Positions 3,608 to 53,874 of a DNA stretch of 64,000 bases are shown piece after piece (position 1 is the stretch's first letter; the number at the start of each line of letters is the position of its first letter). The stretch is from contig JAIXMQ010000016.1 of the NCBI GenBank assembly GCA_025716855.1, forward strand, positions 496,001 through 560,000, read 5' to 3'. Both the position numbers and the translations under genes were made by a program. The notes beneath the pieces were generated by a model. The model ran no database searches and was not told where the DNA came from. It saw only the letters and a program-made list of their open reading frames with translations. Source of the DNA: Pilaira anomala (Eukaryota; Mucoromycota; Mucoromycetes; Mucorales; Mucoraceae).

Positions 3608-5136
3608 AGTTTTTTTTTTTTCTTTATAAAGATGATTAAAGTAATTGAAAAAACCCTTCTTTTATAGTGATAATTTGCATAATTGTAGTTTCAAAAAAAA
3701 AAAAAAGGCTTGTTAAATATAATTTGTATTTCAGAAATGAAACCCCTTTTGTTATTAACGTCTTTTGTAAATACAATACCTATCATCATGTTTATAACAA
3801 GGGTTACTACCTATTGTCAATTCATATTTTATGCGATCAAAGAAATTTCATGCCGATAATCGATCATCCTACAGGAATGTTTTATTTCATAGTATGGGTA
3901 TATATACTTGGGTGTGGTGCGGAGGAAGTTCGTACAAGTTGTCACACATCTTACTTTTTTTTTTGAAATTTTTAGTATGAGTTGGCGATAAACTAGAACC
4001 AAATAAACTTTGGGTGTTTATATTACTTATATATTAATACACATAGGATGCCAAAAAGTAGATAACAAGCAAAAAAGCTAATTAAATTTGACTCTCTTTT
4101 TAGAAGCAATATATCAGTAGTAAAATATATCGAAAAATCTTTTTATCATGCAAAAAGTAGGCCGCGTCCATAATTTTTTTTTTTTTTTTTTTTCAAATTA
4201 AATTATGCAAGATGTAGTGAGTAGTAGGTGCATACTTGATAATACCTTCAATATGAGTGAATTGCCCAAAATTTGATAGCCGGTCATTACCTACATTCTG
4301 TTGATGAGTTGGCTTTTTAATAGTTTGGCTTTCAATGTTTTTTTTTTCATTACTAACTGTTGAACCCTCGGGCTATATGGGCTTCCCAGCACCCCTATGT
4401 ATAACCCGGCTGCCCTTAAGAAAAAGCCTATTAATTATGTTGTTCTTAACCACTCTCCCATATATTCTGGTCACAGGAAGTCTATATCAAGTGCCAATTT
4501 TGTTTTCTGTTTATTTCTGTTTACTTATGTTTATTTATGTTTATTTATGTTTATTTATGTTTATTTATGTTTATTTATGTTTATTTACGTTTATTTACGT
4601 TTATTTCTGTTTCTATTATTTATTTTTGTTTCTATTCTTATTTTTATTTTTATTATTTTTATTCTATTTCACCACTTTATTCCCTTTCTCTTTTATTTGT
4701 TATTACTTTACTCTTTATTTATTACTTTATTCTGCCTCAAGTCTCTCCTATTTTCCCAAGCGTCACCTTAAAACTAATCGTATTTTACTTCTCGGTGTTT
4801 CTATAAATTTAGTCTTGACGTTTCAGTTTTTAATTTATTCCAAGTGCAAAGGTTCAATTGTTATTATTTACTTTATATAAGTTTTACGCCATTTGACAGA
4901 TTATACGAAGATTACCGTTTCAAGTTTCTTTTTTTTTTTTATTATTTTACAATAAACATTTATATCGCAGCAGTATTATATGAGATATATCCCTTTTACA
5001 TAGTATCTCCGTTTCTTTATTTTTCTTGGTATAAAAAGAAATAGATTTTTCGTATTTAAAATTAACTTTGTCTTTTTTTTCTATTTAAAAATTCATCTCT
5101 CTTGCTGCTTTAGTGCTATATATACTTTTGATAACT
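3608..5136. other. Divergent intergenic region between the two secreted paralogues
   Basis: Lies between the start codons of the two paralogues, so it should hold both promoters. It contains a 64-base T-rich block near 4170-4195, a less AT-rich stretch at about 4360-4490, and the 10-bp tandem array at 4511-4610. Open frames across the array are a by-product of the repeat and are not called as genes. Confidence 0.55.
4511..4610. repeat. Ten tandem 10-bp units, consensus TTATTTATGT
   Basis: Ten units in exact 10-base register. The central five are identical (TTATTTATGT); the outer ones differ by one or two bases (TTATTTCTGT at both ends, TTACTTATGT second, TTATTTACGT eighth and ninth). The identical core with diverged edges is typical of a minisatellite that expands from the middle. 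Confidence 0.9.
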
Positions 5137-48958: not shown

Positions 48959-50118
48959 ATGTCAACACACTATACTTCAAAACGAACATTTAATAGAAGA
49001 CATGAACTACCCATATCTCATAACGATAATGATAAAATAAAAGGTAAGATCTTGTCATCATCTCATTCCTCTTTTTTTTTTTTTTTTTTTTCCACTTCGG
49101 CGTCATCTAATGCTTCTCATGTTTTTCAGAACAGTTAATATATGGACTTAGTTTAAAGCAACTATCACTTCTTGTGCTAGTTGTTCAGAACAGTATGTTA
49201 GTATTACTTATGCGATATTCACGAACTTCGACATTAGACGATCAACCGATTTACATTGCTTCCACCGCCGTGTTTATGGCAGAAATTATAAAGATAATTG
49301 CGTGTGGATTCATGTTATATTATCAAGAAAGATCATATAAAAAATGTATTGAATTAGTTTATCACGAAATCATTCAAAAGCCTCGAGAAGTAGTAAAGAT
49401 GTTAATACCCAGTGGATTATACGCATTACAAAATAATTTATTATATATTGCACTCAGTAACTTGGAAGCCGCTACATTTCAAGTGACCTATCAACTCAAA
49501 ATTCTTTCTACTGCTGCATTCTCTATTTCATTACTCGGTCGATCCTTAAATAGAGAGAAATGGTTGGCACTTGTGTTATTAATGGTAGGTGTTACACTTG
49601 TACAGACTGAAAGTGTCAGTTCGGCAGCAACAGCAGCAGAATCTAGTAATTTAGAAATAAGTGATAATGGACAGAGACCTATGGTGGGACTATTGGCTGT
49701 ATTAACAAGTTGTGTATCCTCGGGTTTTGCCGGTTGTTATTTTGAAAAGATATTAAAGACTTCAACTACATCCATGTGGATTCGTAATATTCAATTAGGT
49801 ATATGTGGTGCTACCTTTTCATTTTTAGGTATGATCATGTCTGATTATGGACAGATCAAGGAAGCTGGTTTATATCAAGGTTATAATTTACTCACTTGGT
49901 TTGTGGTTACAAATCAAGCATTAGGTGGTTTATTAGTCGCTTTGGTTGTCAAGTATGCAGATAATATTCTTAAAGGATTTGCTACAAGTATATCCATCAT
50001 TTTATCGGGTGTCATTAGCTTTTGTTTATTGGACTTTCAACCTTCCCTTTTGTTTATCACTGGTACTGCCATCGTGATTGCTGCGACGTATTTATACGGT
50101 GCAAACAATAATAGATAA
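48959..50118 (+). CDS. Nucleotide-sugar transporter, SLC35A type (UDP-galactose/UDP-GlcNAc class), 357 aa
   Basis: Golgi/ER membrane antiporter that brings UDP-sugars into the lumen in exchange for UMP. Two exons: 48959-49043 and 49130-50118; total 1074 nt, in frame. Family hallmarks: VVQNSMLVLLMRYSRT (first helix), LQNNLLYIALSNLEAATFQV and TYQLKILSTAAFSISLLGRS, GFAGCYFEKILKT, and AVVKYADNILKGFATS-like VVKYADNILKGFATSISIIL. About ten hydrophobic segments are present. The wording is that of the UDP-galactose / CMP-sialic acid transporter group; fungi generally lack sialic acid, so UDP-Gal or UDP-GlcNAc is the likely substrate. Confidence 0.92.
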
Positions 50119-50627
50119 TTTTTACAATAGATTTCTTTATAGATTTTTTTTTTTTACACATGATAATAATAATAATAATAATAATAACTACTCTTTTAAT
50201 AATAAATATCCGCAGCAGCAGCCTCATTTTCTCTGTTTGTCCTTTCCAAGAGCAAAAAAAACGAAACAAGTTTAAGGCGCTTTTTGAATTAGTAGGAGGG
50301 ACGATTTTTTATTTTTACCTTGTAGAAAAACTTTCGGCATGAATTAGAAATTAAATAGAATTGCACTTTTATTTTCACAATCTTGATATTTGTATATTAA
50401 AAACGAAATAAAACGTATCATAATTCTAAATACAGATTACACAGCTTACTTATTTCCATCACAGTGGGAATAAAATATAAAAAAAAAAAATATCAACTGA
50501 CTTTTGAAAAAAAAAAAAAACTTTTAAATAGCCGCGTTTTTTTTTTTTTTTTGGGGGAAAGGGATTAAAGTAAACATTCAATTTTCCAAATCATATCGAA
50601 TCTTTCCCTTCATCTAAATAATCGAAA
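50119..50627. promoter_or_regulatory. Intergenic, promoter side of EF-2
   Basis: ATA-repeat at 50163-50186 after the SLC35A stop, then T/A-run-rich DNA with a GGGGGAAAGGG motif at about 50553-50563 roughly 70 bases before the EF-2 start. As EF-2 must be strongly expressed, a strong promoter is expected here; no TATA box is obvious. Confidence 0.45.
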
Positions 50628-53456
50628 ATGGGTAAAGTGATAATTTCAAGAAACTTTAGTTTATAGAATACAACATCCATCCAGTATCAATATTTGTTAG
50701 ATGGATGGATACTTCGTTTTATTTCATATCCTTACTAACACATCATTTTCTCTATCTATTTCTTTTTTATACTCTTTTTTTTATTATGAATTGATTAGTT
50801 GTAAGTATTTCACCTGAAAAAAGCATGGCAGAAACAATTTTAAACTGCGCTCCATTTTTCTGGGCCTTTTTTTTTTTTTTTTTTTTTTTTTTTATCAAGT
50901 ACTAATTAAACCATTGCTCATGTATAGAATTTCACTATTGAAGAAATCCGTAGCTTGATGGACAAGGTTACCAATGTGCGTAACATGTCTGTCATTGCTC
51001 ACGTCGATCACGGTAAGTCTACCTTGACCGATTCCCTTGTTTCCAAGGCCGGTATTATTTCTTCCGGTCGTGCTGGTGAGGCCCGTTTCATGGATACCCG
51101 TAAGGATGAACAAGAACGTGGTATTACTATCAAGTCCACTGCCATTTCTCTTTATTTCCAAATGGCCGATCCTACTGATATTGAGGAAATTAAGGGTCAA
51201 AAGACCGACGGTTCTGCTTTCTTGATTAACTTGATCGATTCCCCCGGTCACGTCGATTTCTCTTCTGAAGTTACTGCCGCCCTTCGTGTTACTGATGGTG
51301 CCCTTGTTGTTGTTGATTGTATTGATGGTGTCTGTGTCCAAACCGAGACTGTCTTGCGTCAAGCTTTGAACGAACGTATTAAGCCCGTTATCTGTCTTAA
51401 CAAGATGGATCGTGCTCTTCTCGAACTTCAATTAGATAAGGAAGAACTTTACAACTCTTTCTCTCGTACTATTGAATCCGTTAACGTTATCATCTCCACC
51501 TATGTTGATGAAGCTCTCGGTGATGTTCAAGTTTACCCCGAAAAGGGTACCGTTGCTTTCGCTTCCGGTCTTCACGGTTGGGGTTTCACTCTTCGTCAAT
51601 TCGCTATTCGTTATGCCAAGAAGTTCGGTGTTGATAAGCAAAAGATGATGGGTAAGCTTTGGGGTGAAAACTACTTCAACCCCAAGACCAAGAAGTGGAC
51701 CACCAAGTCTACTGATGCTGAGGGTAAGCAACTCGAACGTGCTTTCAACATGTTCATTTTGGATCCTATCTACCGTGTCTTTGATTCCGTCATGAACTTC
51801 AAGAAGGATCAAACCAAGGTTCTTTTGGAAAAGTTAGAGGTTAACCTCGCTGCTGATGAAAAGGATTTGGAAGGTAAGGCTCTTCTTAAGGTCGTTATGC
51901 GTAAGTTCTTGCCTGCTGGTGATGCTCTTTTGGAGATGATCTGTATCCATCTTCCTTCTCCCGTTACCTCTCAAGCTTACCGTTGTGCTCAATTGTACGA
52001 AGGTCCCGCTGATGATGAGTGTGCTCGTGGTATCACTGCTTGTGATCCTAACGGTCCTCTTATGTTGTACGTCTCCAAGATGGTTCCCACCTCTGATAAG
52101 GGTCGTTTCTACGCTTTCGGTCGTGTCTTCTCTGGTACCGTCCGTGCTGGTATGAAGGTCAGAATTCAAGGTCCTAACTACCTTCCCGGTTCCAAGACTG
52201 ATCTTGCTGTCAAGTCTATTCAACGTACTGTTCTCATGATGGGACGTAACGTTGAAGCTATCGAAGATTGTCCCGCTGGTAACATTATTGGTCTTGTTGG
52301 TGTTGATCAATTCTTGGTCAAGTCTGGTACCATTACCACCTCCGAAGTTGCTCACAACATGAAGGTCATGAAGTTCTCTGTCTCTCCTGTTGTTCAAGTT
52401 GCTGTTGACGTTAAGAACGCTAACGATCTCCCCAAGCTCGTTGAAGGTCTTAAGCGTCTTGCTAAGTCCGATCCTTGTGTCATGACTTTCACTTCTGACT
52501 CTGGTGAACATATTGTTGCCGGTGCTGGTGAACTCCATCTTGAAATTTGTTTGAAGGATCTCGAAGAAGATCACGCTCAAGTTCCCCTCAAGACTGGTGA
52601 CCCCGTTGTCCAATACCGTGAAACCGTCACTGCTGAATCTACCATTGACTGTCTTTCCAAGTCTCCTAACAAGCATAACCGTATTTACATGCGTGCTCTC
52701 CCCTTGAACGATGAACTCGCTGATGAAATTGATGGTGGTAAGATCTCTGCCAAGGATGATTTCAAGCTCCGTGCTCGTGTCCTTGCTGATAAGTACGAAT
52801 GGGATGTTACTGAAGCTCGTAAGATCTGGTGTTTCGGTCCTGACGGTACTGGTCCTAACGTTCTCGTTGATGTCACCAAGCAAGTTCAATACCTCGGTGA
52901 AATCAAGGATTCTTGTGTTGCTGCTTTCCAATGGGCTACCAAGGAAGGTCCCGTTGCTGAAGAAAACGTCCGTTCCGTTCGTTTCAACATTCTCGATGTC
53001 ACTCTCCATGCTGATGCTATCCATCGTGGTGGTGGACAAATTATCCCCACTTGTCGTCGTGTCATGTACGCTTCTATCCTTACCGCTACTCCCGGTATTC
53101 AAGAACCCGTCTACCTCGTCGAAATCCAATGTCCCGATTCCGCTATTGGTGGTATCTACTCTTGTCTTAACAGACGTCGTGGTCAAGTCTTCTCTGAAGA
53201 ACAAAAGCCCGGTACCCCCATGGTTGCCGTCAAGGCTTACTTGCCCGTTAACGAATCTTTCGGTTTCACTGCTGATCTTCGTGCCGCTACTGGTGGTCAA
53301 GCTTTCCCTCAAGCTGTCTTCGATCATTGGCAAATTATGCCCGGAAACCCTACTGAACCCGGAAACAAGGTCTACGATATCATTCGTGCCGTCCGTAAGA
53401 GAAAGGGTCTCGTTGAAGATATCCCCGGTCTCGATAAGTACTACGATAAGCTCTAA
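50628..53456 (+). CDS. EFT: Translation elongation factor 2, 844 aa
   Basis: GTPase that drives ribosomal translocation. Proposed exons: 50628-50631 (ATGG), 50799-50800 (TT), 50928-53456; total 2535 nt, in frame, giving [20 protein letters not shown], the universal EF-2 start. Motifs: AHVDHGKST (P loop), RGITIKST (switch), [14 protein letters not shown] (NKxD). Near the C-terminus, [15 protein letters not shown] holds the diphthamide His (about residue 700). Length matches yeast EF-2 (842). Codon use is strikingly biased (GGT, GTC, AAG, CGT) compared with the A/T-ending codons of its neighbours, as expected for a very highly expressed gene. The Thr phosphorylated by eEF2 kinase/Rck2 in other species is Met here ([10 protein letters not shown]); the next Thr is kept. 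Long open frames on the opposite strand are shadows. Confidence 0.96.
50799..50800 (+). other. Predicted 2-nt microexon of the EF-2 gene
   Basis: The two bases TT sit between ATTAG (acceptor) and GTAAGT (consensus donor). A perfect branch-point match TACTAAC at 50733-50739 precedes it, with no AG between that site and 50797-50798. The second intron (50801-50927) has TACTAAT at 50900-50906 and ends TATAG. Only ATGG + TT + AATTTC gives the conserved MVNFT start; joining ATGG straight to exon 3 gives a stop within five codons. Confidence 0.75.
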
Positions 53457-53807
53457 ATTACTCTATTTTGTCATATTATTGCATCTCTTAATAAAATCAA
53501 GCTAAGCAGAATTACCATTTTAACCGTTAGTTTATTTAAATATATACATATATATATATATATTATTGTCCTTTTTTTTTATAAAATGTTTGTGCTTGAC
53601 AGGAAAGTAGGGTTAAATGGGAATTGTTAGATACTTTAGGTTTATGTGTCTCCTTCTAATAAATTGATGGAAACCCTAACTTTATCTAACCAACATGGTC
53701 CGTGCGGCATAGACATATGTCAAAAAAATCTCAATCATTGTGAAGAATATGGATTGTTCAATGTTTTTTTTATATCGAACATCTTTAATTGGCTGTCAAG
53801 AAATATG

Positions 53808-53874
<67 letters not shown>

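Follow-up and report, generated by a model that had tools for sequence, protein, structure and literature searches.

The closest described counterparts of the exon considered here are the single-nucleotide exons of plants, i.e. that of Arabidopsis APC11 (Guo and Liu 2015, PMC4674806) and the 1-nt exons of plant APC11 and VPS55 (PMC8831610). According to the available text of these reports, such exons are constitutive, lie between canonical introns, fall below the length required for exon definition, are essential for the reading frame and are missed by annotation, and they are backed by cDNA and, for APC11, also by mutant constructs. Among fungi, a 20-nt microexon that annotation had overlooked is found in the ascomycete transcription factor Xlr2 of Trichoderma, where its inclusion depends on glucose, and the accessible part of that article calls functional microexons previously undescribed in filamentous fungi (PMC11121469). 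Other systems offer partial parallels. Ascomycete stwintrons, as outlined in excerpts of PMC5639578, PMC7138796 and PMC9024468, consist of two introns at one place that are removed consecutively, and they leave no exon behind. At zero-nucleotide recursive splice sites, which are described for very long introns in the available portion of PMC13149111, acceptor and donor are almost adjacent and removal is stepwise, with a donor following the joined exon. Finally, the placozoan mitochondrial cox1 gene contains an exon of a single base pair, which the excerpted source (PMC5436844) places between non-spliceosomal group I introns.

The locus described here is situated in an EF-2 gene of Pilaira anomala (Mucorales), whose genome comprises 34.25 Mb in 225 contigs, and within a stretch of 64,000 nucleotides that was analyzed as a whole and is hereafter called the window. 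The start of this gene appears to be split by two ordinary U2-type introns around an exon of two nucleotides, TT, which would yield a mature start of ATG-GTT-AAT-TTC (MVNF); we estimate the probability of this reading at roughly 0.93. Such an exon would share all of the structural properties listed above with the plant exons (PMC4674806, PMC8831610, as far as their available text goes), but differs in being 2 nt long, in residing in a fungus and in EF-2, and in being predicted from sequence. Compared with the other systems as excerpted, the Xlr2 exon is ten times longer, the stwintrons leave nothing where the EF-2 site would keep two nucleotides, the recursive sites have no exon nucleotides and lie in far longer introns, and the cox1 introns are non-spliceosomal whereas those of EF-2 are spliceosomal. 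No report of a 2-nt exon or of Mucorales microexons was recognized in the literature searched, most subscription journals lying outside it, and TT would be the smallest fungal exon in that literature. With 1-nt exons already known in plants, it is an extreme fungal case at the small end.

All parts of the gene are on the plus strand. Exon 1 contributes ATGG (50628..50631), that is, the start codon (50628-50630) and the first base of codon 2 (G, 50631). It is followed by intron 1 (50632..50798; 167 nt, GTAAAG...GATTAG), by exon 2 (TT, 50799..50800), which completes codon 2 as GTT (Val), by intron 2 (50801..50927; 127 nt, GTAAGT...TATAG) and by exon 3 (50928..53456), which begins with AATTTCACT (AATTTC...) and holds the remaining 842 amino acids of the EF-2 coding sequence up to a TAA stop. 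On rereading the sequence, we found the positions of ATGG, TT and AATTTC and their flanking splice motifs to be exact to the base in the original prediction. The TACTAAC branch-point motif that it had placed at 50733-50739 is there as well; its A (50738) lies 60 nt from the end of the acceptor, with no AG in between. For intron 2 a branch motif about 20 nt before the acceptor had been proposed, and a CTAAT is indeed present, whose A (50905) lies 22 nt from the acceptor end, again without an intervening AG. The joined coding sequence (ATGG, TT and exon 3) has the 2535 nt and 844 amino acids that had been foreseen, starts with MVNFT and has its sole stop at the end. If TT is skipped, so that exon 1 joins exon 3 directly, translation gives MEFHY and a stop, in agreement with the expected termination within five codons. 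Read backwards from AATTTC, the frame at once meets a stop, the acceptor's own TAG, and the EF-2 start must therefore be supplied by splicing.

The product of exon 3 matches the Pfam domains GTP_EFTU, GTP_EFTU_D2, EFG_III, EFG_IV and EFG_C, which is the domain order of EF-G and EF-2, and to this the splice model alone adds the MVNFT-type start. Its closest relatives among the matches listed (the best 120 of 7994) are the EF-2 proteins of Benjaminiella poitrasii (93% identity) and Pilobolus umbonatus (90%), both of which are Mucorales. When bacterial and archaeal genome contigs and viral contigs were scanned with the EF-2 protein, no such locus was found in them. Downstream of the gene, a run of 64 Ts occupies window positions 53809-53872, and many of the examined introns and upstream regions contain shorter T or A runs.

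By searching the genome with the EF-2 protein, we identified a second complete EF-2 gene on another contig, C198. Its start reads ATGG/GTATGT...CTAAC...TTTAG/TT/GTAAGT...CTAAT...TATAG/AATTTC, with ATGG and TT (positions 3753-3756 and 3901-3902 of the extracted locus, L021) identical to those of the window gene, with introns of 144 and 88 nt as opposed to 167 and 127 nt, and with a branch-to-acceptor distance of 40 nt in intron 1. Skipping of TT here also gives MEFHY and a stop. Thus, in both copies an exon well within the limit of 15 nt for ultra-short microexons lies between GT-AG introns with CTAAC or CTAAT motifs, and in both its inclusion is required for the EF-2 reading frame. The exon is furthermore conserved between homologous genes, as seen directly in the C198 copy and, for other species, through the pattern of annotated protein starts. 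End-to-end alignments of the two copies scored 1.9 SD above shuffled sequences for intron 1, 3.8 SD for intron 2 and 1.3 SD for the 40 nt preceding the ATG, and by this measure the paired introns have little recognizable in common beyond the splice signals and a hairpin (see below). Exon 3, on the other hand, is 98.3% identical, with 44 differences over 2529 positions; all but two of these (42) concern third codon positions, two amino acids are changed, and 12 of the 44 fall within the first 250 nt.

The two genes belong to a duplicated block (window 49155-53468; L021 1232-6530), in which the upstream neighbor of EF-2 is a nucleotide-sugar transporter. Because the transporter copies are only 68% identical at the nucleotide level (919 aligned columns), the block is, judging from this divergence, an old duplicate whose introns have probably long been diverging separately. 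The near-identity of the EF-2 exon 3 sequences is probably the result of gene conversion or of strong selection on codons.

The second copy also provides the better test against chance, as the window site had been chosen post hoc. The pattern AGTTGTAAGT is expected by chance about 0.0005 times in the intron stretch of the window and, whether the genome rate or an order-1 Markov model is used, about 0.0004 times in the corresponding C198 stretch. The two strands of the 34.25 Mb genome together contain 112 occurrences of it, compared with 142 of the reversed control, and in none of the three pattern scans did tiny exons outnumber their reversed-pattern controls (20 vs 42, 122 vs 142 and 112 vs 142). 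The AG-TT-GT motif is consequently no proof by itself. The first of these scans was blind to EF-2, whose branch point is too distant from the acceptor. Four of its 20 matches were inspected (L035, L029, L037 and L024), and one of them, L035, led to the permease exons described below. L029 and L037 were judged by eye to be unlike microexons. L024 (C1:1037125-1037156) has the arrangement TACTAAC...CTAG-T-GTAAGT and is a candidate 1-nt exon by pattern only.

Competing gene models were enumerated for both copies, using GT-AG introns of at least 45 nt, up to three exons and any ATG within 1 kb upstream that leaves the frame open into exon 3. For the window gene this gave nine models with two exons and 146 with three, and for the C198 copy six and 394, respectively. 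Ranked by summed splice-site score, the TT model came first among the three-exon models of both genes (1/146 and 1/394), and it did so with either of two small scoring matrices. The smaller matrix was built from 11 window introns, themselves picked for good consensus, while the larger one added 14 chaperonin sites read by eye, some of whose flanking letters may be mistyped. Within the enumerated set, TT is also the only model that yields MV(NFT) in either gene, so the claim that ATGG, TT and AATTTC alone restore this start holds for two- and three-exon GT-AG models. A less favorable aspect is the first donor of the window gene (GTAAAG), which scores only 4.0 on the window-only matrix; the 11 donors used for training range from 6.8 to 11.3, and the best donor of a two-exon rival reaches 4.4. 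This slightly tempers our confidence in the TT exon. The branch-to-acceptor distance of intron 1, 60 nt in the window and 40 nt in the copy, is long and likewise counts against the model. The corresponding donor of the copy (GTATGT) scores 8.3 on the same matrix, and GTAAAG was also read by eye as the donor of two chaperonin (CCT) introns in this genome (L044, L046).

Conservation outside P. anomala was judged from annotated protein starts in the best 120 of 7994 EF-2 matches. By name, 35 of these could be assigned to Mucorales or Umbelopsidales, with several entries per species, while among the remaining 85 there are a few non-fungi as well as metagenome proteins without a name. In a scripted count, an MV start was found in 12 of the 35, as opposed to 65 of the 85 (Fisher P 2e-5, a value that ignores relatedness among entries). 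Residues other than MV directly before NF occur in eight of the 35 and in none of the 85; they were identified by pattern matching within the first 40 residues, which could not place long N-terminal extensions (e.g. P0059, P0111 and P0119). What precedes NF in these eight is nothing, M (twice), MG, MA, MPFPLQF, MDRSCKE and MVDRLLLIV. Truncated or otherwise altered proteins make up a further 15 of the 35 and 20 of the 85, the latter being all non-MV entries there, and are uninformative about the junction. In seven of the eight odd starts the point of disagreement coincides with the exon 3 acceptor, as is expected if annotation found exon 3 and missed TT; the eighth, P0025 from Umbelopsis, keeps the V before NF and fits an intron elsewhere. 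Missed tiny exons would, on this indirect evidence, explain the odd or missing EF-2 N-termini among Mucorales database entries.

Several other explanations of the locus were weighed against a 2-nt exon. The two introns could be nested as a donor-split stwintron, in which an inner intron interrupts the donor of an outer one (ATG/G(intron)TTGTAA...), so that everything between ATG and exon 3 is removed, the junction reads ATGAATTTC and the protein starts with MNFT. The frame is kept in this arrangement, two database proteins are annotated with precisely this start (P0005 from Radiomyces and P0022 from Chlamydoabsidia), and stwintrons are known from ascomycete fungi, as far as the excerpted reports above describe them. 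We nevertheless regard it as very unlikely, given that the outer donor would be GTTGTA, with a score of -5.7 as compared to 10.4 for GTAAGT in both copies, and that the protein would lose Val-2, a residue present in the 65 MV entries outside the group among the best 120 of 7994. An alternative first exon, with the start provided by some other upstream ATG, had been pointed out in advance as a threat to the prediction. Up to 1 kb upstream there are nine ATGs with nine two-exon models in the window, and 19 ATGs with six models in the copy, and on the window-only matrix their best donors (4.4 and 6.5) are near the first donor of the window gene. On the larger matrix, by contrast, their maxima are 3.8 and 3.7, while donor 1 of the two genes scores 7.5 and 7.7. 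None of these two-exon models gives MV (0/9 and 0/6), and no peptide is common to both genes (six of nine window models and all six copy models compared), which makes this explanation highly improbable.

The first residues could also be dispensable, with translation starting from Met-13 (MDKVTN) and no need for a microexon. Several database entries do begin at this position (e.g. P0008-P0010 from Rhizopus microsporus, P0012 and P0028), but R. microsporus is represented by an MVNFT entry as well (P0003). In the two P. anomala copies the frame is open across codons 3-12, which hardly differ between them, and ATGG and the splice sites, although conserved, would serve no purpose, so that a start at Met-13 appears extremely improbable. 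The last candidate, which the original prediction had itself raised, is a sequencing or assembly error hiding a plain ATGGTT first exon with one intron, and the AT-rich and homopolymer-rich region with its long T runs is one where errors might be suspected. Against this, ATGG and TT are separated by 167 nt in the window, beyond the reach of any small error, and the same architecture recurs at two loci on different contigs with diverged introns, by which such an error is practically excluded. The 2-nt exon thus stands as our preferred reading.

Under the 2-nt exon reading, the spliced message would contain ...ATGGTTAATTTC..., and both introns would be short enough for intron definition, each being recognized through its own donor, branch point and acceptor. 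U1 snRNP occupies several bases of the exon, and the AG is covered when the acceptor is recognized. Both machineries would hardly fit on TT together, and the introns are thus presumably removed one after the other. Removal of intron 1 first would create ATGGTT/GTAAGT, a usable donor, while removal of intron 2 first would create ...TTAG/TTAATTTC, a usable acceptor. We slightly prefer the latter order, since intron 2 has the consensus donor and its branch point lies nearer to the acceptor. The GTAAGT donor, identical in both copies, would furthermore guard against skipping from exon 1 to exon 3. EF-2, which encodes an essential factor of protein synthesis, is a highly expressed and conserved gene, and inclusion of TT should consequently be near complete: as skipping ends the frame after five codons, a cell with high EF-2 output must include TT nearly always. 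The available text of Guo and Liu (PMC4674806) argues similarly for APC11, favoring sequential intron definition or recursive removal, and cites the 9-nt exon of potato invertase, for which the downstream intron is removed first. The suggestion of recursive splicing at the EF-2 site accordingly survives in part, i.e. in the probable stepwise removal, but not in its zero-length aspect, since two bases separate AG from GT and the introns are short, with a combined stretch of about 300 nt.

Apart from the splice signals, the intron 1 sequences of both EF-2 genes have kept the arms of a predicted hairpin, ATCCATCCA and TGGATGGAT, which together with a loop that differs between the copies spans 36 nt in the window (50675..50710, plus strand) and 47 nt in the C198 copy (L021 3776-3822). 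The exact arms at a spacing of 8 to 38 nt are found in only two places genome-wide, namely in these two genes, and the reversed control in none. The hairpin is present in both centroid folds, although the fold of the whole intron 1 shows no unusual stability (z -0.15 in the window and -1.66, a weak value, in the copy). Being identical in both copies, the arms display no compensatory changes, and the conserved element may be a matter of sequence instead of structure. Situated between donor and branch point, the stem would cut the distance between them from 106 to 70 nt in the window and from 103 to 56 nt in the copy. It probably brings the two closer in the manner of the zipper stems of yeast, e.g. 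in RPL7B, which likewise lie between donor and branch point, shorten their distance and, according to the accessible part of PMC12311795, aid splicing; the EF-2 stem differs in being predicted.

Tiny exons were also encountered elsewhere in the genome. An amino-acid permease gene on C160 (L035) reads ...AATTACTG / GTTTTCT (7 nt) / TGG (3 nt) / GCTGTT..., with introns of 63, 85 and 82 nt, and encodes the split peptide GWNY-W-FS-W-AVTIATEL, with permease family matches flanking it on both sides. A second permease gene, on C149 (L070, L071), is split in the same manner, with GTTATCG and TGG between introns of 58, 87 and 84 nt, while a third, on C179 (L069), is intronless in this region and reads NYWYNWAVTVAVEL. 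Judging from these gene structures, this lineage thus appears to tolerate and retain exons of 3 and 7 nt. Given the genome-wide counts without excess over controls, tiny exons in this genome are probably few.

A more far-reaching scenario, which we consider unlikely as a whole, is that TT was fixed in Mucorales EF-2 before an old gene, or perhaps genome, duplication and was then kept, along with an intron 1 hairpin dedicated to it, as a point at which splicing is controlled. In this case the EF-2 level would be set by the order or efficiency of intron removal, with skipping or retention leading to dead mRNAs, and exons of 2-7 nt would be a regular, unrecognized feature of the order. For the regulatory role of the 2-nt exon in particular, our confidence is modest.

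The EF-2 gene of P. anomala would constitute a clean natural test of how the spliceosome handles an exon that is too small for exon definition, and the fungal group concerned has culturable species. An exon of this size is easily missed by gene-finding software, tends to escape common read aligners and, if real, would explain faulty EF-2 N-termini of Mucorales in the databases. The 7-nt and 3-nt exons of the permeases suggest that this annotation problem may extend further.
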